DNA of 40,223 nucleotides from a virus, in the IMG/VR virus record IMGVR_UViG_3300047356_000069, positions 1 to 40,223 of that record; one strand, written 5' to 3'. The notes under the pieces were generated by a model that did not search any database, had not been told where the DNA came from, and saw only the letters and a list, made by a program, of their open reading frames with translations. The position numbers and the translations under genes are program-made. Below, piece by piece: positions 865 to 40,223 of the stretch. How positions within the stretch are numbered: position 1 is the first letter of the stretch; each line of letters begins with the position of its first letter.

Positions 865-1076
865 TGAAGATACCTACAAAACCTAAAAATACTAATAAGT
901 ATAAAAAAAAAGTAATGCTTGATGGTGATACAGCTTATAACATAGCTAATACTTTATCACAGGGTATGGCTGGTGCTGGTTTAACTGCTGGTGGTTACTA
1001 TGCTAGTAAAGCTATTAAGGGAACTATTAGAGGTTTTAAAAGCATAGGAAAGACTATGGGAAGAAAACCAAAATGA
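864..1076 (+). CDS. Small basic hypothetical protein
   Basis: This is a 70-residue, strongly basic protein (Lys-rich N terminus, C terminus GRKPK). Its centre is rich in Gly and Ala (GMAGAGLTAGGYYASKAIKG), a possible membrane-active or flexible segment. The start overlaps the stop of the holin-like gene by one base and its stop overlaps the start of the small terminase gene by four (ATGA), so it sits in a tightly coupled string. No family is recognised. The overlaps and the absence of competing frames support it being real. Confidence 0.7.
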   Translation: MKIPTKPKNTNKYKKKVMLDGDTAYNIANTLSQGMAGAGLTAGGYYASKAIKGTIRGFKSIGKTMGRKPK

Positions 1077-1288
1077 CAGAAAAAGAACTGATGGATACCT
1101 TGCATGATGCAGTCACTAAAGAACTGCTTATGCGAGTACAGAGTGGAGAAGCAACTGCAAGTGAACTGTCAGTAGCTGTCAAGTTTCTTAAAGACAATGG
1201 TGCTTCTCTTGATGTAATTACAGCAGAAAGTCCTATGGCTAACCTTCTACAAGACCTACCGTTTGAGGTTGGAGAACAGCTACAATGA
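1073..1288 (+). CDS. Terminase small subunit (T7 gp18-like DNA maturase A)
   Basis: The 71-residue protein contains ELLMRVQSGEATASELSVAV followed by KFLKDNGASLDVI, the characteristic pattern of small terminase subunits of T7-like phages. The subunit recognises the packaging site on concatemeric DNA and stimulates the large terminase. At 71 residues it is shorter than T7 gp18 (about 89), lacking mainly the terminal extensions. It is linked by ATGA overlaps to the genes before and after and lies just upstream of the large terminase, the usual T7-like order with a spanin-position gene between them. Identification rests on the motif plus gene order. Confidence 0.8.
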   Translation: MTEKELMDTLHDAVTKELLMRVQSGEATASELSVAVKFLKDNGASLDVITAESPMANLLQDLPFEVGEQLQ

Positions 1289-1575
1289 AACAGGTAGCCC
1301 ACAAGTTAAATGAAAGTTCAGAAGTTACCATACCCCTACGCAACTTAATTAGTATGATTGCCTTTACAGCCGTATCAGTTTGGGTTTATTTCGGGTTGAC
1401 AGAGCGAATTTCTTTTTTAGAACACAATCTTGAATTAGCTATGGCTGAAGTAGAAGAAAACGATCAGTGGATTGATGCTTTTCAGCCACCTAAGAATGTA
1501 CAAGATACTATTGAAAAAGTACACCAGTTAGAAATAGACATAGAAAAAATAAAGTTTGTACTTGGGAATAGATAA
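1285..1575 (+). CDS. Membrane/coiled-coil protein in the position of the Rz-like spanin
   Basis: The 96-residue protein has one hydrophobic segment (about residues 20-40, LISMIAFTAVSVWVYFGL) and then a long acidic coiled-coil-like region (ISFLEHNLELAMAEVEEN and DTIEKVHQLEIDIEKIKFVL). This is inner-membrane spanin (Rz) topology, and the gene lies between the small and large terminase genes, exactly where T7 encodes its Rz-like gp18.5. I looked for an overlapping Rz1-type lipoprotein with a lipobox and did not see one, so the spanin call rests on topology and position. It overlaps both neighbours by 1-4 bases. Confidence 0.5.
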   Translation: MKQVAHKLNESSEVTIPLRNLISMIAFTAVSVWVYFGLTERISFLEHNLELAMAEVEENDQWIDAFQPPKNVQDTIEKVHQLEIDIEKIKFVLGNR

Positions 1576-3245
1576 TGGTTAATGTACCAGAACAACTTAA
1601 AGACTTTAGAAACTTTACATACCTTGTATGGCAGCATTTAGGTCTACCTGAGCCTACTGAGATACAATATGACATAGCACACTATCTTCAGGATAGCCCC
1701 AAGCGTTGTATCATTGAGGCTTTCCGTGGTGTAGGTAAGTCCTACATCACTGCTGCTTACGTAGTACATCAACTACTCCTAGACCCACAGCTAAAGTTTA
1801 TGGTTGTGTCAGCGTCTAAGGCACGTGCTGATGACTTCTCTACATTTACTCAGCGTATCATCATGGAACTCCCTATATGCCAGCATCTGGTTGCTAGAGA
1901 GGGCCAGAGATGGTCTAAGATAGCCTTTGACGTAGCACCTGCTAAAGCCTCTGGTAGCCCCTCAGTGAAGTCTGTAGGAGTCACAGGACAGCTTACAGGT
2001 AGCCGTGCAGACATAATCATTGCTGATGACGTAGAAGTCCCTAATAACTCTATGACACATATGATGCGAGAAAAGCTTGGGGAGACTGTTAAAGAGTTTG
2101 ACGCTGTTTTAAAGCCTGATGGTAAGATTATATACCTTGGTACACCACAGAATGAGATGTCTCTATACAATGCCCTACTAGCACGTGGATACGAGATGAG
2201 AGTATGGCCTGCTAGATACCCTAGCCTAGAACGCGCAGAGAAGGCTTATGGGGGTAGGTTGGCTCCTCTCCTGTATGATTCTATGCAAACTAACCTAGAG
2301 GCCGTGTATGGGCTTCCTACAGACCCTAAACGATTTGATGACACAGACTTACTAGAAAGAGAACTAAGTTATGGTAGAAGTGGCTTTGCTTTGCAATTTA
2401 TGTTGGATACTTCACTATCTGATGCAAACAAATACCCCCTTAAACTAAGTGACTTAATGATCTACTCCTGTGATAAAGATACTGCACCTGAAAAACTAGT
2501 GTATGGTATCTTTAAGCCTCTTAACGAACTGCCCAATGTAGGACTAGCAGGGGACAAGTTCTACGCCCCTGAGGACACCATAGGCAGGGCTAACTACACT
2601 GGTAGTGTTTTAGCCATTGACCCCTCTGGTAGAGGCTCTGACGAGACAGCATACGCTGTTGTTAAGATGTTAAACGGTTTCCTACACGTGGTTGACTGTG
2701 GTGGTGTTGAGGGTGGCTATAGTAATAGTACGCTGCAACATCTAACAGACTTGGCTAAGATACATCAGGTAAACATGGTGTTGGTTGAGAGTAACTTTGG
2801 TGATGGTATGTTTACTGAACTGCTAAAGCCTTACTTACTAAAGACCTATCCTGTGACGATGGAAGAAGTTAGACATAGTAAGCAGAAGGAACACAGAATA
2901 ATAGATACCCTAGAGCCTGTTATGAACCAGCACAGGCTGGTGGTAGACCCTAAGGTAATACAAAAGGACTATGATAGTACTCAACACATGCCACCAGATA
3001 AGGCTGCTAAGTATATGCTAGCCTATCAGATGACACGTATAACAAAACAAAGAGGGGCATTAGCACATGACGATAGACTTGACGTACTTGCTATGGCAGT
3101 GCAGTACTGGTCAGACCAGATGGCTGCTGATGCAGATACAGAGATACGAACAAGAAAAGAAGAATTACTTGAGGAAGAACTAGACAAGTTTATGGATGGT
3201 TTTAACTTTGGAAATAAACCTAGAGAATCCTTAGGGTTTTTCTAA
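1575..3245 (+). CDS. Terminase large subunit (T7 gp19-like)
   Basis: This 556-residue ATPase-nuclease packages DNA into the prohead. Walker A is AFRGVGKS at residues 49-56, followed by ITAAYVVHQLL. The segment VTGQLTGSRADIIIADDVEV matches the T7 gp19 stretch ending in the Walker B acidic residues. The C-terminal RNase H-like nuclease domain begins at VLAIDPSGRGSDETAYAVV. Near the end, AHDDRLDVLAMAVQYW is another family pattern. Length is close to T7 gp19 (586 residues). The start overlaps the preceding stop by one base (TAATG). The stop codon lies inside the first copy of the proposed phage promoter, so late transcription ends and restarts here. Confidence 0.97.
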   Translation: MVNVPEQLKDFRNFTYLVWQHLGLPEPTEIQYDIAHYLQDSPKRCIIEAFRGVGKSYITAAYVVHQLLLDPQLKFMVVSASKARADDFSTFTQRIIMELPICQHLVAREGQRWSKIAFDVAPAKASGSPSVKSVGVTGQLTGSRADIIIADDVEVPNNSMTHMMREKLGETVKEFDAVLKPDGKIIYLGTPQNEMSLYNALLARGYEMRVWPARYPSLERAEKAYGGRLAPLLYDSMQTNLEAVYGLPTDPKRFDDTDLLERELSYGRSGFALQFMLDTSLSDANKYPLKLSDLMIYSCDKDTAPEKLVYGIFKPLNELPNVGLAGDKFYAPEDTIGRANYTGSVLAIDPSGRGSDETAYAVVKMLNGFLHVVDCGGVEGGYSNSTLQHLTDLAKIHQVNMVLVESNFGDGMFTELLKPYLLKTYPVTMEEVRHSKQKEHRIIDTLEPVMNQHRLVVDPKVIQKDYDSTQHMPPDKAAKYMLAYQMTRITKQRGALAHDDRLDVLAMAVQYWSDQMAADADTEIRTRKEELLEEELDKFMDGFNFGNKPRESLGFF

Positions 3246-3260
3246 CCTGTACCTCTTAGG
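3241..3260 (+). promoter_or_regulatory. Candidate phage RNAP promoter, copy 1
   Basis: TCTAACCTGTACCTCTTAGG overlaps the terminase stop codon. Its first 14 bases are identical to the copy behind the RNAP gene (9452) and differ at one base from the copy behind the RNR gene (18123). The spacing from the conserved 5' end to the first G resembles T7-class promoters. It would drive transcription across the long non-coding region, possibly for replication priming or early genes. Confidence 0.6.
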
Positions 3261-3280
3261 CTAGACCCCTGTTACATAGT

Positions 3281-3326
3281 ATAGTATAGGTATATGTTAA
3301 AATATGTTTAACTATACCTTTACTAT
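3281..3326. repeat. Long AT-rich inverted repeat
   Basis: The left arm 3281-3301 and the right arm 3307-3326 are almost perfectly complementary. The inner part is GTTAAA/TTTAAC and the outer part ATAGTATAGGTATA/TATACCTTTACTAT, with one bulged T and one mismatch around a 5-base loop. It has no U-tract and almost no G+C, so it is not a typical intrinsic terminator. It lies 40 bases behind the promoter-like copy downstream of the terminase gene. Possible roles are a protein-binding dyad, a replication or packaging element, or an RNA-processing hairpin. Confidence 0.75.
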
Positions 3327-3407
3327 GTTATGCTTTGTGTAACACAGACGTTGTAGTTATTCTAATAGAGGAGTAACACAACCGTGCTAAAAGAATAAGG
3401 CAAAGAT

Positions 3408-3596
3408 ATGGAAGTAATATGGACACTATTATTAACTGTGTGTATGGATAACGGATGTTTAACACAAGATATACAGTGGTTTGAAGATAAACAAGAATGT
3501 ATTAAAATGAAAGTAGTACATGAGGATATACTTCCTGACGGACATTGGAAGACAGTGGACTACAAGTGTACTATTAAAGGATCACTAGAGATTTAA
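3408..3596 (+). CDS. Small cysteine-containing hypothetical protein
   Basis: The 62-residue protein has a short hydrophobic N terminus (VIWTLLLTVC) and then a soluble part with four cysteines in all (C12, C17, C31, C53) and a conserved-looking WFEDKQECIKMK segment. Exported or membrane-attached topology is plausible. It lies alone after the terminase gene, where T7 encodes gp19.5, but shows no clear similarity to it. The ribosome-binding site (AAGG, about 9 bases upstream) is weak. No function is recognised. Confidence 0.6.
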   Translation: MEVIWTLLLTVCMDNGCLTQDIQWFEDKQECIKMKVVHEDILPDGHWKTVDYKCTIKGSLEI

Positions 3597-3599
3597 ATT

Positions 3600-3628
3600 T
3601 TGCTAAAAAATCTGAGGGGGTATATAAT
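3600..3628 (+). promoter_or_regulatory. Candidate host sigma70-type early promoter
   Basis: TTGCTA (3600-3605), a 17-base spacer and a perfect TATAAT (3623-3628) point toward the early genes. The -10 box lies inside the loop of an inverted repeat (GAGGGGGT 3614-3621 with ACCCCCTC 3646-3653), so a protein binding the dyad, or a hairpin in single-stranded DNA, could affect initiation. This is the best host-type promoter I can see in the window. Confidence 0.6.
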
Positions 3629-3653
3629 AGGATAGAACGCGTGACACCCCCTC
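3614..3653. repeat. GC-rich inverted repeat around the early promoter -10 box
   Basis: GAGGGGGT (3614-3621) pairs perfectly with ACCCCCTC (3646-3653) across 24 bases that include TATAAT. A second perfect 6-base dyad, CGCGTG (3638-3643) with CACGCG (3656-3661), is interleaved. Neither is followed by a T run, so termination is unlikely and an operator-like or packaging-site role fits better. Confidence 0.6.
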
Positions 3654-3700
3654 GACACGCGCAACCTTTTAGTATAACACACTTCACCATGGTTTGTCAA

Positions 3701-3790
3701 TGTCAAACATTTGACAACAGTGTCAAACATATGACGCCTGAGTGTTGCAGATGTGCAACATGTGTGACATTTGTGCAACATGTTTGTGTC
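3701..3790. repeat. Iteron-like repeats with 20-bp period
   Basis: TGTCAAACAT occurs at 3701 and 3721. TGTGCAACATGT occurs at 3752 and 3772. Both pairs are exactly 20 bases apart. Related dyads are TGTCAAA/TTTGACA (3701-3716) and TGTTGCA/TGCAACA (3743-3760), and a related TGTGTGACAT begins at 3761. A 20-base period puts the sites on the same face of the helix. A strongly AT-rich tract follows, the arrangement expected for an origin or for terminal short repeats such as those beside the T7 terminal redundancy. Confidence 0.6.
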
Positions 3791-4043
3791 TCTCTCTATC
3801 TATTTTTTTGCTATACTTATTATATGCGAAACAATTTTTAACACTATCAAACTTTCTTTCTAATTTTTTCAACTACTTATCATTTTTTATCTATTTTTTT
3901 GCATTTTGTTGTTGCTATACATTTTGCTTTGTGCTTAACTCTAAGCATCAAAGGACGCACTGCCAAGGCAGACAATCTTGATAGGGCAAAAGAAAGCGCA
4001 AAAGAGATACGTTCAACCTTGCTAGCCCATTCTAAAAAAGAGT

Positions 4044-4072
4044 TTGACAACCTAAACAGAATACACTAGTCT
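4044..4072 (+). promoter_or_regulatory. Possible second early promoter
   Basis: A consensus -35 box TTGACA (4044-4049) is followed after 17 bases by TAGTCT (4067-4072), a weak -10 box. It lies 36 bases before the first early gene. The weak -10 keeps confidence low. Confidence 0.35.
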
Positions 4073-4107
4073 TTAACAATCGAAACAAACAAAAGAAAGA
4101 TAAACAA

Positions 4108-7012: not shown

Positions 7013-7025
7013 CAGGGGTGTGGCT

Positions 7026-7799
7026 ATGGGGTACAGTTTAGAACAACAGCTTGAATTAGAACGAGAAATGCTGGACGCTGGCATCAACAGGTTCAGGCGT
7101 GTGATAGATGAGGCAGTAGGCAAGGGTAAAGAGACACGCACACTGCATGGCAGGACTATGATTGCCACAGTGGTAGGCTCAGTAGCTGAAGGGGTAAAGC
7201 AAGTACAAGACACACCCACCAGCAACAGGGATGTGGCCTACAAGAAGCTGCAAGGCATGAAGCCTGACGCTGTAGCATACATAGCCCTAGTCTCTATGGT
7301 TGATGGCATCAGCAAGGCTCAAGCCTTGGTTAAAGTAGCAAAGAATATTGGTGTCAACATAGAGATGCAAGACAGGCTAGAGAAGTGGATCGAAGCAGAG
7401 GGAGATGTAGCAAGGAACACAATCAAGAAGGCCAACGAGAAGGGTACGACAGCTAGACGCTACGGCCTGACTAACAAGATGAACAAGGATGGATACAAAC
7501 ATCTAGCATGGACAGGTGATCAACGTATCCATGTAGGCATGAAGCTGGTTGATGTAATCATCAAGAACACAGGGCTAGTCAGACTGGAAAGGCTATCGAC
7601 TAGCAGAAATAAAACGACTACTTATCTTAGGGCAACACCCATCACAGAGGAATGGGTCAAGGCATTTAATTCACACATGGAAGTATCAAGACCACGATGG
7701 ACACCATGTATCGTACCACCCAAGGACTGGACAGACACAGAGGGGGGTGGATACTACGCAGATTTCTTAGACCCATTAAGTATAATCAGGAGAGGATAG
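7026..7799 (+). CDS. T7-type RNA polymerase, N-terminal domain subunit (split gene)
   Basis: The 257-residue protein matches the N-terminal domain of T7 RNA polymerase throughout. MKPDAVAYIALVSMV aligns with KPEAVAYITI of T7 (residues 110-119), RIHVGMKLVDVIIKNTGLVRL with HVGVRCIEMLIESTGMV, and PCIVPPKDWTDTEGGGYYAD with the T7 block CVVPPKPWTGITGGGYW (271-287). It stops after PLSIIRRG, near T7 residue 298-300. In T7 this domain binds the AT-rich part of the promoter and opens the DNA. ATG 7026 follows AGGGG by 7 bases; an in-frame GTG at 7020 is less well placed. The catalytic part is a separate gene starting one base after this stop. Confidence 0.93.
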   Translation: MGYSLEQQLELEREMLDAGINRFRRVIDEAVGKGKETRTLHGRTMIATVVGSVAEGVKQVQDTPTSNRDVAYKKLQGMKPDAVAYIALVSMVDGISKAQALVKVAKNIGVNIEMQDRLEKWIEAEGDVARNTIKKANEKGTTARRYGLTNKMNKDGYKHLAWTGDQRIHVGMKLVDVIIKNTGLVRLERLSTSRNKTTTYLRATPITEEWVKAFNSHMEVSRPRWTPCIVPPKDWTDTEGGGYYADFLDPLSIIRRG

Positions 7800-7800
7800 T

Positions 7801-9450
7801 ATGAAGGCACACATGACCAAGCTGAAACAGCGTGACCTATCCCAAGAGTTCGACTGCTTGAACACACTGCAACACACACCATGGCAGATCAACAGGCCAG
7901 TGCTTGAGATCATCCGTAACATGTGGGACAGTGGACAAGAGTGGGCAGGACTACCAGCCAGAGAGGACAGGCCACTACCTAGCTACCCATTCAACAAAGA
8001 ACCAGCAGCCATGGATGAGGCAGAACGCAAGCTGTTCAAGGACTGGAGTAAGAAACGTAACGAGGTGTATACCTACAACAACAAGACTGTAAGCAAGCGC
8101 ATACAAGTGGAACGCACACTACAGATAGCTGAACAATACAGCAAGTACGATGAGTTCTATTATGTATGGCAGAATGACTTTCGTTCTCGCAAGTATCCAG
8201 CCAGCACATTCCTGTCACCACAGGCAGCAGACTGGAGTAAGGGATTGATGACCTTCAAGGTAGACAAGGCCATCAACAATTGGGATGACGCACGATGGTT
8301 GTGTATTCATGGTGCTAACCTATACGGCAACGACAAGATCACACTAGACCAGCGTGAGGGTTGGGCGTGGGATATAGCAGATGAGGTTAAGCGTGTGGCT
8401 GACAACCCATACGACAACAACTGGTGGCTGGATGCAGACAAACCCTTTCAGTTTCTTGGGTGGTGCTTAGAGTTTGCTGGCCTAGTCAAGCATGGCTGGG
8501 GGTATATGTCCAACCTACCTGTGTCTGCTGACGGAAGCTGTAACGGACTGCAACATCTATCAGCTATCCTACGTGATGAACGTGGTGGTAGGGCAACCAA
8601 CCTACTAGCATCTGATATACCTCAAGACATCTACACTGAGGTAGCAGAGGAAGCCATGCGTAACATCACCAAGGATGCAGACCAAGGCGAAATTCTAGCG
8701 AAAAAATTTATAGAGTTTGACATCGACAGGTCTCTAACTAAACGGTCAGTGATGATTGTACCATACAGTGGCACGATACACTCATGTCGTACCTACATTG
8801 AGGAAGCTATGCGTGATAAGATTGAGAAGGGAACACCAGATATATTTGGTGATGACCTATTTGATGCTACCATCTACCTAGCTAGACATGTGTGGGATGC
8901 AATCAACGGTGTGATTACAGCAGCACGACAAGTCATGGACTACGTTAAGGATGTCGGTGCTGTCTACGCCAGTCATAACAAGCACATGGAATGGGTAACA
9001 CCAACCAACTGGCTGGTCATGCAGAATTACAATGACGTAGAGAAACGTAGGATCACTAGCCTAATTAATGGTAACACAATACAGCTAGTACTCAACAGAG
9101 ATATACCTAACCAAGTAAGCAAGCGGCGTACTGGTTCAGGTGCTAGCCCTAACTTCATCCACTCTATGGATGCAGCAGCTATGACTAAGACTATCAATAC
9201 CTGCAAGCAGCAGGGTATCAGACACTTTGCCATGGTACACGACAGCTATGGTACACACAGTAGCGAGATGCCAAGGCTGTCTGATGTATTGAGACAAGAG
9301 TTTGTTCAGATGTATACTGAACATGATGTGTTGACAATGCTAAGACAACATGCTATTGTCACACTTGGAACTGAGGACGTTCCAACACCACCAAAGAAGG
9401 GTAGTTTAGACATCAACAACGTATTGAAATCACAATACTTTTTTGCCTAG
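7801..9450 (+). CDS. T7-type RNA polymerase, catalytic subunit (split gene)
   Basis: The 549-residue protein begins where T7 RNA polymerase residues about 302-305 would be and carries the whole polymerase body. DGSCNGLQHLSAILRDE holds the motif A Asp at residue 244 (T7 D537). RSLTKRSVM..PYSG has Lys 314 and Tyr 322 (T7 K631, Y639) in motif B. MVHDSYGT has Asp 481 (T7 D812) in motif C. The C terminus YFFA corresponds to the T7 FAFA foot. AGGAGAGG 5-12 bases upstream of ATG 7801 gives an independent start, and the frame is +1 relative to the N-terminal gene. Together the two chains total 806 residues against 883 in T7. It should transcribe the middle and late genes. Confidence 0.95.
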   Translation: MKAHMTKLKQRDLSQEFDCLNTLQHTPWQINRPVLEIIRNMWDSGQEWAGLPAREDRPLPSYPFNKEPAAMDEAERKLFKDWSKKRNEVYTYNNKTVSKRIQVERTLQIAEQYSKYDEFYYVWQNDFRSRKYPASTFLSPQAADWSKGLMTFKVDKAINNWDDARWLCIHGANLYGNDKITLDQREGWAWDIADEVKRVADNPYDNNWWLDADKPFQFLGWCLEFAGLVKHGWGYMSNLPVSADGSCNGLQHLSAILRDERGGRATNLLASDIPQDIYTEVAEEAMRNITKDADQGEILAKKFIEFDIDRSLTKRSVMIVPYSGTIHSCRTYIEEAMRDKIEKGTPDIFGDDLFDATIYLARHVWDAINGVITAARQVMDYVKDVGAVYASHNKHMEWVTPTNWLVMQNYNDVEKRRITSLINGNTIQLVLNRDIPNQVSKRRTGSGASPNFIHSMDAAAMTKTINTCKQQGIRHFAMVHDSYGTHSSEMPRLSDVLRQEFVQMYTEHDVLTMLRQHAIVTLGTEDVPTPPKKGSLDINNVLKSQYFFA

Positions 9451-12330: not shown

Positions 12331-14037
12331 ATGGAATACATATGGGACTTAGAAGCAGACCATCTACTTAAAGAGGTGACACAAGTTTGGTGTCATGTCT
12401 TCAGGGATGTACACACTGATGAGGTACACACCTTTGACCCAACACAGACGCAAGAAGCATTGGAGTTTATGGACAATGCAAAGACCTTGATTGGTCACAA
12501 CATCATCGACTACGACTTGCGTGTGATGAAGAAGCTACACGACTTTACCTTCAAAGGTAAGGTAGTAGATACGTTGGTATACTCTAGGACAATCTGGCCT
12601 CACCTAAAAGAACTAGACTTCACTATGTACAGCAAGGGTAAGTTCCCTGCTAACATCATTGGTAGTCATAGCTTGAAGGCTTGGGGCGTAAGGCTAGGAG
12701 AATTAAAAGGTGACTTCAATAATCATAGCGAAAGCTTTGCAGCATACACCACCGAAATGTTGGAGTACTGCATCCAAGACACAAAGGTTACGCAGAAACT
12801 ATACGAGAAAATTCTCAGCAAAAATTTTAGCAGCGATGCGTTACATCTTGAACAAGTAATCCACACGCTGCTGATAGGACAAGAGGAAAGAGGCTTTGAC
12901 TTTGATGTTGAGGCTGCACAAGAACTGTATGCTAGCCTAGCTGGACGCAAGGCTGACATCGAACAACAGTTGGTAGACACGTTTGAGCCTACCATCATTG
13001 AGTTAAAGACAAAGACTAAGACCATCCCATTCAACCCTGCATCACGGCAGCAGATTGCTGACCGACTGATCAAGCGAGGGTGGGAGCCTACAGTATTCAC
13101 TGACAGTGGTGAGCCTAAGGTAGATGAGACAGTGCTGGAAAGCATTGACATGCCAGAGGCTAGACTGCTACAGGAATACTTACTACTAAACAAACGCATA
13201 GGCCAACTAGCTACTGGCAAACAGGCATGGCTCAAGCTAGAGGAGAACGGCAGACTACATGGTAGAGTAAACCATATGGGTGCTGTCACATCTAGGTGTA
13301 CCCACGCCAACCCCAACCTTGGGCAGGTACCCAGCGTTGGTGCAGCCTATGGCAAGGAGTGTCGTTCCTTATTCGTTGCACCCAAGGGCTACAGCCTGTT
13401 AGGTGCTGACGCATCAGGTTTGGAACTACGCTGCCTAGCACACTATATGGCTAGGTATGATGACGGTAACTATGCTAACGTAGTGTTAGACGGTGACGTA
13501 CATACCACTAACCAAGAAGCTGCTGGTCTTCCCACACGTTCCAATGCCAAGACATTCATCTATGGATTCTTGTATGGTGCAGGTGATGAGAAGATTGGTA
13601 AGATCATAGGCAAGGGTGCGAAGGAAGGTAAGCGTATTAAGAAGAAGTTTCTTAGCCAGCTACCTGCACTCAAGAAGCTGAAGGATGCAGTATCCCAAGC
13701 AGCAGATGATCGTGGTTACATCAAGGGACTAGATGGTAGGCACACACCTATCCGACACAGCCACGCAGCACTCAACAGTTTGCTTCAAGGTTGTGGTGCA
13801 ATCTTATGTAAGACTTGGTACGTATTCATAGCTGATGCTATCAAGAAGGCAGGACTAGATGCTACTATCGTAGCGTTTGTACATGATGAAGTTCAACTAG
13901 TAGTAAAGGAAGGTCAAGAAGATGAGACAGGAAGACTTATTCAACAGTGTATGCGAGATGTCGAACACCACTACGGATTCAGATGTAGACTCGACAGTGA
14001 GTACAAGTACGGACGCAACTGGTCAGACACGCATTAA
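12331..14037 (+). CDS. Family A DNA polymerase lacking the T7 thioredoxin-binding loop
   Basis: The 568-residue replicative polymerase has an intact 3'-5' exonuclease domain (Asp 6 and Glu 8 in IWDLEADHLL; later IGHNIIDYDLRVM and YCIQDTKVT). The polymerase domain has motif A GADASGLELRCLAHYM (Asp 360), motif B THNQ-like NAKTFIYGFLYGAGDEKIG, and motif C FVHDEVQLV (Asp 519). T7 gp5 has 704 residues. The largest loss is the thumb insertion: T7 has about 72 residues between ETF and FNPSS, and here only 15 (residues 219-233) separate DTF from FNPAS. ATG 12331 follows a GGAG site; an in-frame GTG at 12316 is less likely. Confidence 0.95.
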   Translation: MEYIWDLEADHLLKEVTQVWCHVFRDVHTDEVHTFDPTQTQEALEFMDNAKTLIGHNIIDYDLRVMKKLHDFTFKGKVVDTLVYSRTIWPHLKELDFTMYSKGKFPANIIGSHSLKAWGVRLGELKGDFNNHSESFAAYTTEMLEYCIQDTKVTQKLYEKILSKNFSSDALHLEQVIHTLLIGQEERGFDFDVEAAQELYASLAGRKADIEQQLVDTFEPTIIELKTKTKTIPFNPASRQQIADRLIKRGWEPTVFTDSGEPKVDETVLESIDMPEARLLQEYLLLNKRIGQLATGKQAWLKLEENGRLHGRVNHMGAVTSRCTHANPNLGQVPSVGAAYGKECRSLFVAPKGYSLLGADASGLELRCLAHYMARYDDGNYANVVLDGDVHTTNQEAAGLPTRSNAKTFIYGFLYGAGDEKIGKIIGKGAKEGKRIKKKFLSQLPALKKLKDAVSQAADDRGYIKGLDGRHTPIRHSHAALNSLLQGCGAILCKTWYVFIADAIKKAGLDATIVAFVHDEVQLVVKEGQEDETGRLIQQCMRDVEHHYGFRCRLDSEYKYGRNWSDTH

Positions 14038-14509
14038 CCCAAAGACAGGCAGACCTTTCTTCTATAAGGATAATCCAGAAGCAGTTAGAAAGCGTGATGC
14101 CAACAGAATGTATGTGAATGGTAAAGAAATTTCTAAGAAACATCCATTACACAAAGCAGGACGTTATAAATCTTTCAATGATGCAGCCTTCTCTAGTCTT
14201 GAGAACTATGAACGTAGTACTGAGGGCATGGTCTACATCATTACCAATCCAGCGTGGCCTAAGTGGGTTAAGATTGGTATGGCTGTTGATGCTGACGATA
14301 GGTGCAACGGCTACCAGACAAGCAGCCCCTTCCGTGACTACGAGGTAGTAGCCACTATCAGCACTAACGACAGACGTAAGGCTGAGGCTATCGCACATCA
14401 GATAGCAGATGGCATGGCTAGTGATCGTAGGAACGAATGGTTTAAGCTAAAGAAAGCACAAGCAAGACAGGTATTAGTACAAGTAGAGGAGAAGTTAAAT
14501 GGACTTTGA
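13958..14509 (+). CDS. T5orf172/GIY-YIG-like protein
   Basis: The C-terminal half of this roughly 183-residue protein (about residues 88-175) reads GMVYIITNPAWPKWVKIGMA, then DDRCNGYQTSSPFRDYEVV and EWFKLKKAQARQVLVQVEEKL. This is the T5orf172 (MUG113) version of the GIY-YIG nuclease fold. The N-terminal part (NPKTGRPFFYKDNPEAVRKR) looks like a DNA-binding or linker region. It starts inside the last 80 bases of the DNA polymerase gene in another frame; in-frame ATGs at 13922 and 14108 are alternatives. The role is unknown: possibly a nuclease acting on DNA, or a selfish insertion beside the polymerase gene. Confidence 0.75.
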   Translation: MSNTTTDSDVDSTVSTSTDATGQTRINPKTGRPFFYKDNPEAVRKRDANRMYVNGKEISKKHPLHKAGRYKSFNDAAFSSLENYERSTEGMVYIITNPAWPKWVKIGMAVDADDRCNGYQTSSPFRDYEVVATISTNDRRKAEAIAHQIADGMASDRRNEWFKLKKAQARQVLVQVEEKLNGL

Positions 14510-39934: not shown

Positions 39935-40223
39935 ATGGAACCTATCAGTACTGCCCTTGCAGGAATTGCATTAGTTAAACAGAGTGTGGACTTTATTAAG
40001 ACGCACATTAGCACTGTTCAAGATATTGGACAAATAGCAAGCCAGATTGATGACCTGTTTACAGGTGAGAAACAAATCCAACAAGCCAGAAACAAGAAGT
40101 CTGGTGCAGGACTTGGAGATCAGTTTGGGGTAGATACTGTAGCAAAAGAAGTCATAGATGCTAAACTCGCAGCAGAGAAATTGCAGGAAGTAGCCACTAT
40201 GGTTGACATGCGTTTTGGTCACG
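39935..40223 (+). CDS. Membrane-anchored conserved phage protein (5' part; continues at base 1)
   Basis: The start codon ATG 39935 follows AAGGA (39924-39928, 6 bases before the ATG). The protein begins MEPISTALAGIALVKQSVDF and runs off the contig end in frame with the sequence at base 1. See 1-462 for the remaining part and topology. The joined protein has about 166 residues and a C-terminal membrane anchor. Confidence 0.85.
   Translation, partial: MEPISTALAGIALVKQSVDFIKTHISTVQDIGQIASQIDDLFTGEKQIQQARNKKSGAGLGDQFGVDTVAKEVIDAKLAAEKLQEVATMVDMRFGH
39974..40223. repeat. Contig-end overlap, right copy
   Basis: Identical to 1-250 except G at 40096 against A at 123, a synonymous change (AAG/AAA, both Lys) that may be a real variant in the population or a sequencing error. 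It closes the genome into a circle. Confidence 0.95.

Follow-up and report, generated by a model that had tools for sequence, protein, structure and literature searches.

A predicted direct terminal repeat in a T7-like marine phage carries an array of dyads whose spacing, not sequence, is conserved among relatives

The interval between the large terminase gene and the first likely early gene of a T7-like marine phage very probably contains the direct terminal repeat (DTR) of its genome, present as one collapsed copy, and inside it lies an array of short dyads repeating about every 10 bp. Among relatives the rhythm and the ends are conserved and the letters are not. On balance we lean towards the combined reading in which the region is a collapsed DTR and its array would be a landing or holding platform for terminase, read by the spacing of the dyads and not by their exact sequence. 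We infer the terminal repeat from strong homology; the role of the array is put forward as a hypothesis, and that function, taken separately, is proposed tentatively.

The window, the whole stretch of 40,223 nucleotides analysed here, is a circular contig, as positions 1-250 recur at 39974-40223 with one mismatch. It is a circularised T7-like (Autographiviridae) genome with T7-type genes for RNA polymerase, SSB, endonuclease I, primase-helicase, DNA polymerase and exonuclease, and among isolates the CRP group of Roseobacter phages comes nearest to it in TerL (~61% identity). The repeats fall within the ~860 bp between the end of terL (3245) and the first likely early gene (4108). The features discussed below are:

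1073-1288, plus strand: small terminase subunit (TerS), 71 aa (Pfam DNA_Packaging_2, E 3e-13; phrog_891, terminase small subunit)
1575-3245, plus strand: large terminase subunit (TerL), 556 aa (phrog_38, E 1e-120)
3241-3259, plus strand: probable phage-RNA-polymerase promoter TCTAACCTGTACCTCTTAG, a recurring element in the phiOR position directly 3' of terL
3606-3622, plus strand: left terminal-repeat end element AAAAATCTGAGGGGGTA, predicted cut after 3622; it precedes five known left ends and is conserved in relatives
3623-3797, unstranded: predicted DTR, 175 bp, one collapsed copy in the circular assembly, placed by both end elements
3647-3651, plus strand: CCCCC element, terminal-repeat position 25 and 42 nt from the start of the A-run
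3671-3700, minus strand: putative leftward sigma70-type promoter TTGACA-18-TATACT, A0-like, 11/12 consensus in the window
3696-3735, unstranded: repeat block A, dyad units 3700-3710 and 3720-3730 (TGTCAAACAT, spacing 20)
3742-3781, unstranded: repeat block B, dyad units 3742-3752, 3751-3761, 3760-3770 and 3771-3781 (TGTTGCAGAT, TGTGCAACAT, TGTGTGACAT, TGTGCAACAT)
3786-3804, plus strand: right terminal-repeat end element GTGTCTCTCTCT/ATCTATT (slash, cut), predicted cut after 3797 (+/-4); it matches T7 and T3 and is conserved in relatives
3798-3930, unstranded: AT-rich start of the unique left-end DNA, presumed early host-promoter zone (GC 18-25%)

The 19-bp sequence at 3241 recurs behind the genes for RNA polymerase (9452) and ribonucleotide reductase (18123). 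With four matches of the TCTAACCTGTACCTCTTAG type against 0.21 expected, it is probably a phage-polymerase promoter standing where T7 has phiOR. The T7-type RNA polymerase itself is encoded by two ORFs, 7020-7799 (259 aa) and 7801-9450 (549 aa), which match positions 5-257 and 271-816 of phrog_414. The same split occurs in 8/8 complete relatives, the gene being single in CRP-125, HTVC019P and LUZ100, and it recalls the two-subunit RNAP II of phage N4. A GIY-YIG-like (T5orf172/MUG113) endonuclease-type ORF at 13922-14509 overlaps the end of the DNA polymerase ORF.

The placing of the terminal repeat begins from phages whose ends are known. In T7, T3, gh-1, HTVC019P and P-SSP7 an A-run (AAAAATCTGAG-like) begins 17 nt ahead of the left end; the ends of P-SSP7 were determined by experimental sequencing (PMC3350473). 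The left ends read AAAAATCTGAGTGACTA/TCTCACAG in T7, AAAAATCTGAATGGGTA/TCTCATAG in T3, AAAAATCTGAATGGTCA/CCTCTCAA in gh-1, AAAATTATGAGGGGGTA/TCGTATTA in HTVC019P and AAATGTCTGAGGTCATA/TATACGAT in P-SSP7. The left element found in the relatives of the window, AAAAATCTGAGRGGGTA, is the same element that precedes these known ends. In both the T7-like known ends and the window CCCCC starts about 25-26 nt inside the left end, and the distance from A-run start to CCCCC is 42 nt in the window and 42-43 nt in T7, T3, gh-1, HTVC019P, P-SSP7, LUZ100 and BB8 (for T7, 42 as counted from its AAAAAT, 54 if an earlier A-run is taken). On the other side, the right ends of T7 and T3 both read TGTGTCCCT/ATCTGTT and are matched by the window (..CT/ATCTRTT). 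The right end of P-SSP7 is without this element, and that of HTVC019P would shift the cut about 4 nt later, hence the uncertainty of +/-4.

Each end element occurs once in the window, and in 65 distinct relatives the two bracket a variable stretch of 136-230 bp (median 174). The window thus has, in an autographivirus, the position between terL and the early genes, the left element with its CCCCC spacing and the right element, all of which it shares with the T7-like DTRs of similar size (T7 160 bp, T3 231 bp, HTVC019P 162 bp, P-SSP7 206 bp). It differs from them in that its ends are predicted from sequence and its interior sequence is unrelated. We judge it highly probable that 3623-3797 is the direct terminal repeat of this phage, with the mature left end predicted between 3622 and 3623 and the mature right end between 3797 and 3798. 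Among metagenome contigs, one of 40 kb begins within the repeat and runs to 6 nt past its own predicted left cut, and others break elsewhere. The deposited terminal repeats of LUZ100 (L149; 37071-37100) and BB8 (L158; right end) start 12 nt and 6 nt, respectively, downstream of the position given by the A-run/CCCCC rule, and the deposited record of CRP-227 (L150) is linearised directly after AAAAAAATCTGA, adjoining the predicted left end. A literature search with the left-end letters returned only unrelated primer matches among the matches listed.

The array lies inside the predicted repeat, about 20-100 bp from the right-hand predicted cut. The first-pass annotation had described two sequence types repeating at exactly 20 bases, with internal dyads and a T-rich, easily melted tract behind them, and its description was accurate: TGTCAAACAT stands at 3701 and 3721, TGTGCAACATGT at 3752 and 3772 and TGTGTGACAT at 3761, the dyads are TGTCAAA-CA-TTTGACA and TGTTGCA-GATG-TGCAACA, and 3801-3900 is 18% GC. 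Four pairs of 10-mers recur at lag 20, where 2000 dinucleotide shuffles of 3245-4107 gave a mean of 0.002 and reached four once (1/2000). What it had missed is the base unit of about 10 bp, together with the end elements on either side of the terminal repeat. Six TGTnnnACA-like dyad units start at 3700, 3720, 3742, 3751, 3760 and 3771, which makes the 20-bp repeat distance a double step of a ~10-bp unit. A single 100-bp stretch holds five TGTnnnACA sites, a density reached in 0/2000 shuffles, and elsewhere in the genome there are at most two per 100 bp. A reading as hairpin or RNA structure was dropped, the fold z-scores being only mildly low (mean -1.6 and -1.9) and near those of the upstream flank (-1.4); no Rfam family was matched in the window.

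The AT-rich tract belongs to the left-end DNA next to the repeat. T3 and LUZ100 have their early host promoters in this position, downstream of the terminal repeat; no strong rightward promoter was matched in the window itself. On its 3' side, 3941-4100 may be a structured early leader, with complementary stretches conserved in relatives (e.g. CATCAA..TTGATAGGG). A close relative, L009, carries a tRNA gene in its early region (3855-3925), where the window has none.

The period proved to be conserved beyond the window. In 28 relatives from viral contigs, picked as mutually dissimilar in the DTR stretch, the autocorrelation of the DTR interior peaked at 9-11, 18-20, 28-29 and 38 bp (z up to 12.9), with a best period of 9.75 bp. 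Taken individually, 24/28 gave z > 2, against a mean of -0.15 and a maximum of 1.8 in coding-window controls; a clear period was absent in three or four of the 28. The first-pass annotation had staked its repeats on conservation of the period among relatives, and a period of ~10 bp is what they share. The conserved property of the array is the spacing of its dyads. The 9.75-bp period is present in the purine/pyrimidine and amino/keto classes and absent in AT/GC, so simple bendability is not the answer, and a nucleosome-like signal of AT/GC bendability was rejected. Measured from the right cut, the TGTnnnACA sites also share a common phase at 10.0 bp (R 0.65, n=52, against a null maximum of 0.47); measured from the left cut, R is 0.24. 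Part of the right-cut register may stem from the shared descent of the relatives.

The letters of the array are uncoupled from the terminase. Relatives L010 and L012 share the same TerS sequence and a TerL of 98.4% identity, and they carry four and zero TGTnnnACA sites; the identity of their DTR interiors is 0.52, against 0.47+/-0.05 for shuffled sequence. The same decoupling is seen between L036 and two relatives from other metagenomes, L053 and L056 (interior identity 0.38-0.39), and the end elements are unchanged throughout these comparisons. For L012 and L021 a mosaic was noted: the TerS and TerL of L012 are near the window's type, and its flank, terminal repeat and early region are of the L013 type, which suggests that the whole end block was recombined.

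The ~10-bp period, the right-cut register and the decoupling of letters from terminase together favour a platform read by spacing. At a concatemer junction, terminase would recognise the two end elements and then cut at about 3622/3623 and 3797/3798. T7-like phages package the right-hand end first, and the dyad array just inside the right cut would hold or position the terminase complex on this first-packaged end, in a place comparable to that of lambda cosB. If recognition is by regular dyad spacing, each lineage would be free to rewrite the letters of its array. In the window's type, block A would double as the -35 side of the leftward A0-like host promoter. Against such a platform stands the period of the arrays in T7, T3 and gh-1, which is 11-13 bp and not 10; Ninurta also falls in that range, and P-SSP7 and CRP-125 are at about 10.25. 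The lack of the period in AT/GC and the three or four representatives with no clear period likewise tell against it. The wider proposition, that T7-like terminases recognise the packaging end by a letter-independent ~10-bp dyad rhythm in register with the right cut, so that arrays can be swapped while terminase and cut elements stay fixed, is speculative, and we think it rather less likely to be true than false.

Known systems offer partial likenesses. Of the three readings suggested in the first-pass annotation, a counterpart to the short repeats that flank the terminal redundancy of T7 came closest, except that the array is inside the predicted terminal repeat and not beside it. Like the CCTAAAG short repeats of T7 and T3, it consists of short units within the terminal repeat that are echoed in the phage's own flanks; unlike them, it is concentrated near the right end, within the repeat, and its unit is TGTnnnACA at ~10 bp in place of CCTAAAG at ~11-13 bp. 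Lambda cosB and the SPP1/SF6 pac sites may be compared with it as well, as repeated elements within ~150 bp of a terminase cut, here a predicted one, on the first-packaged side; the window's clade is set apart by the decoupling of letters from TerS. The DNA-binding domain of SF6 TerS shows no preference for pac repeats, and selection by shape has been proposed; SPP1/SF6 pac repeats are poorly conserved although the TerS proteins are interchangeable (PMC4737164). A review doubts that TerS wraps DNA (PMC9611059).

The array might instead have no function of its own and be a by-product of terminal-repeat copying, through slippage or a switch of template at short dyads, with recombination accounting for what it shares with the flanks. 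The very rapid turnover of sequence, the independence of the letters from terminase and the tendency, across relatives, of array 7-mers to recur in the flanks of the same phage (p 0.003 and 0.023) are all consistent with this. Slippage alone would not, however, be expected to give a constant period of ~10 bp over unrelated units, nor to produce register with one end only, and we consider this explanation unlikely.

The repeats could also be operators or upstream activator sites of the A0-like leftward host promoter, on which a regulator of host or phage origin would act shortly after the left end has entered the cell. In favour of this, at least 11/12 consensus positions of the putative promoter are present on the leftward strand in 9/28 representatives (12/12 in L044, L045 and L122), and none reaches that level rightward. 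Its -35 box lies within block A, with two dyads 20 bp apart just upstream. T7 and T3 A0 is likewise a leftward sigma70-type promoter in the end region, that of T3 inside the terminal repeat; the promoter of the window is nearer to consensus, has its -35 box in the repeat array and is present in only some relatives. Arrays of the same period nevertheless occur in relatives without the promoter (L025, L030, L032, L048, L051, L061), and block B does not adjoin it. Clustering of the ORFs of at least 45 aa in nine complete genomes found no early protein that follows array type, and a co-inherited early regulator was rejected. An earlier suggestion of regulator sites survives for block A only, where the array overlaps the promoter, and as an account of the whole array the operator reading is doubtful.

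Sequence-specific binding sites for TerS, or for TerL, are improbable. The array adjoins the predicted terminase cut, repeated dyads are a usual form of binding site, and TGTnnnACA is common to many relatives. If TerS read letters, however, the same TerS should mean the same letters, as expected of a cosB- or pac-like site read by sequence; no such co-variation was found, identical TerS occurring with unrelated arrays in L010 and L012, and L036 against L053 and L056 behaving likewise. Comparing terminase identity with array identity led us to reject these sites. We also rejected a replication origin, most improbable here, with the repeats as its iterons and the neighbouring tract as its melting region: direct repeats of ~20-bp period do adjoin an 18% GC tract, but no Rep-type initiator was found in the subset of window ORFs scanned, the RNA polymerase, primase-helicase, polymerase, SSB and exonuclease are all T7-type, the annotated primary origin of T3 directly follows the RNA polymerase gene (equivalent here to about 9.45 kb, where there is a phage promoter), and the letters of the units change freely between close relatives.

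Whether small terminases recognise viral DNA by reading its sequence or by its shape, through wrapping, is disputed (PMC9611059, PMC4737164). The clade studied here is a natural experiment on this question, in which the terminase is constant, the candidate target has been rewritten and only the period has been kept. The ends, in turn, carry a three-part signature: an A-run with TCTGAG before the left cut, CCCCC at 42-43 nt, and ..CT/ATCTRTT at the right. Circular assembly can mislead on genome ends, as the case of P-SSP7 illustrates (PMC3350473), and this signature would allow terminal repeats to be placed in T7-like genomes that have been assembled as circles.
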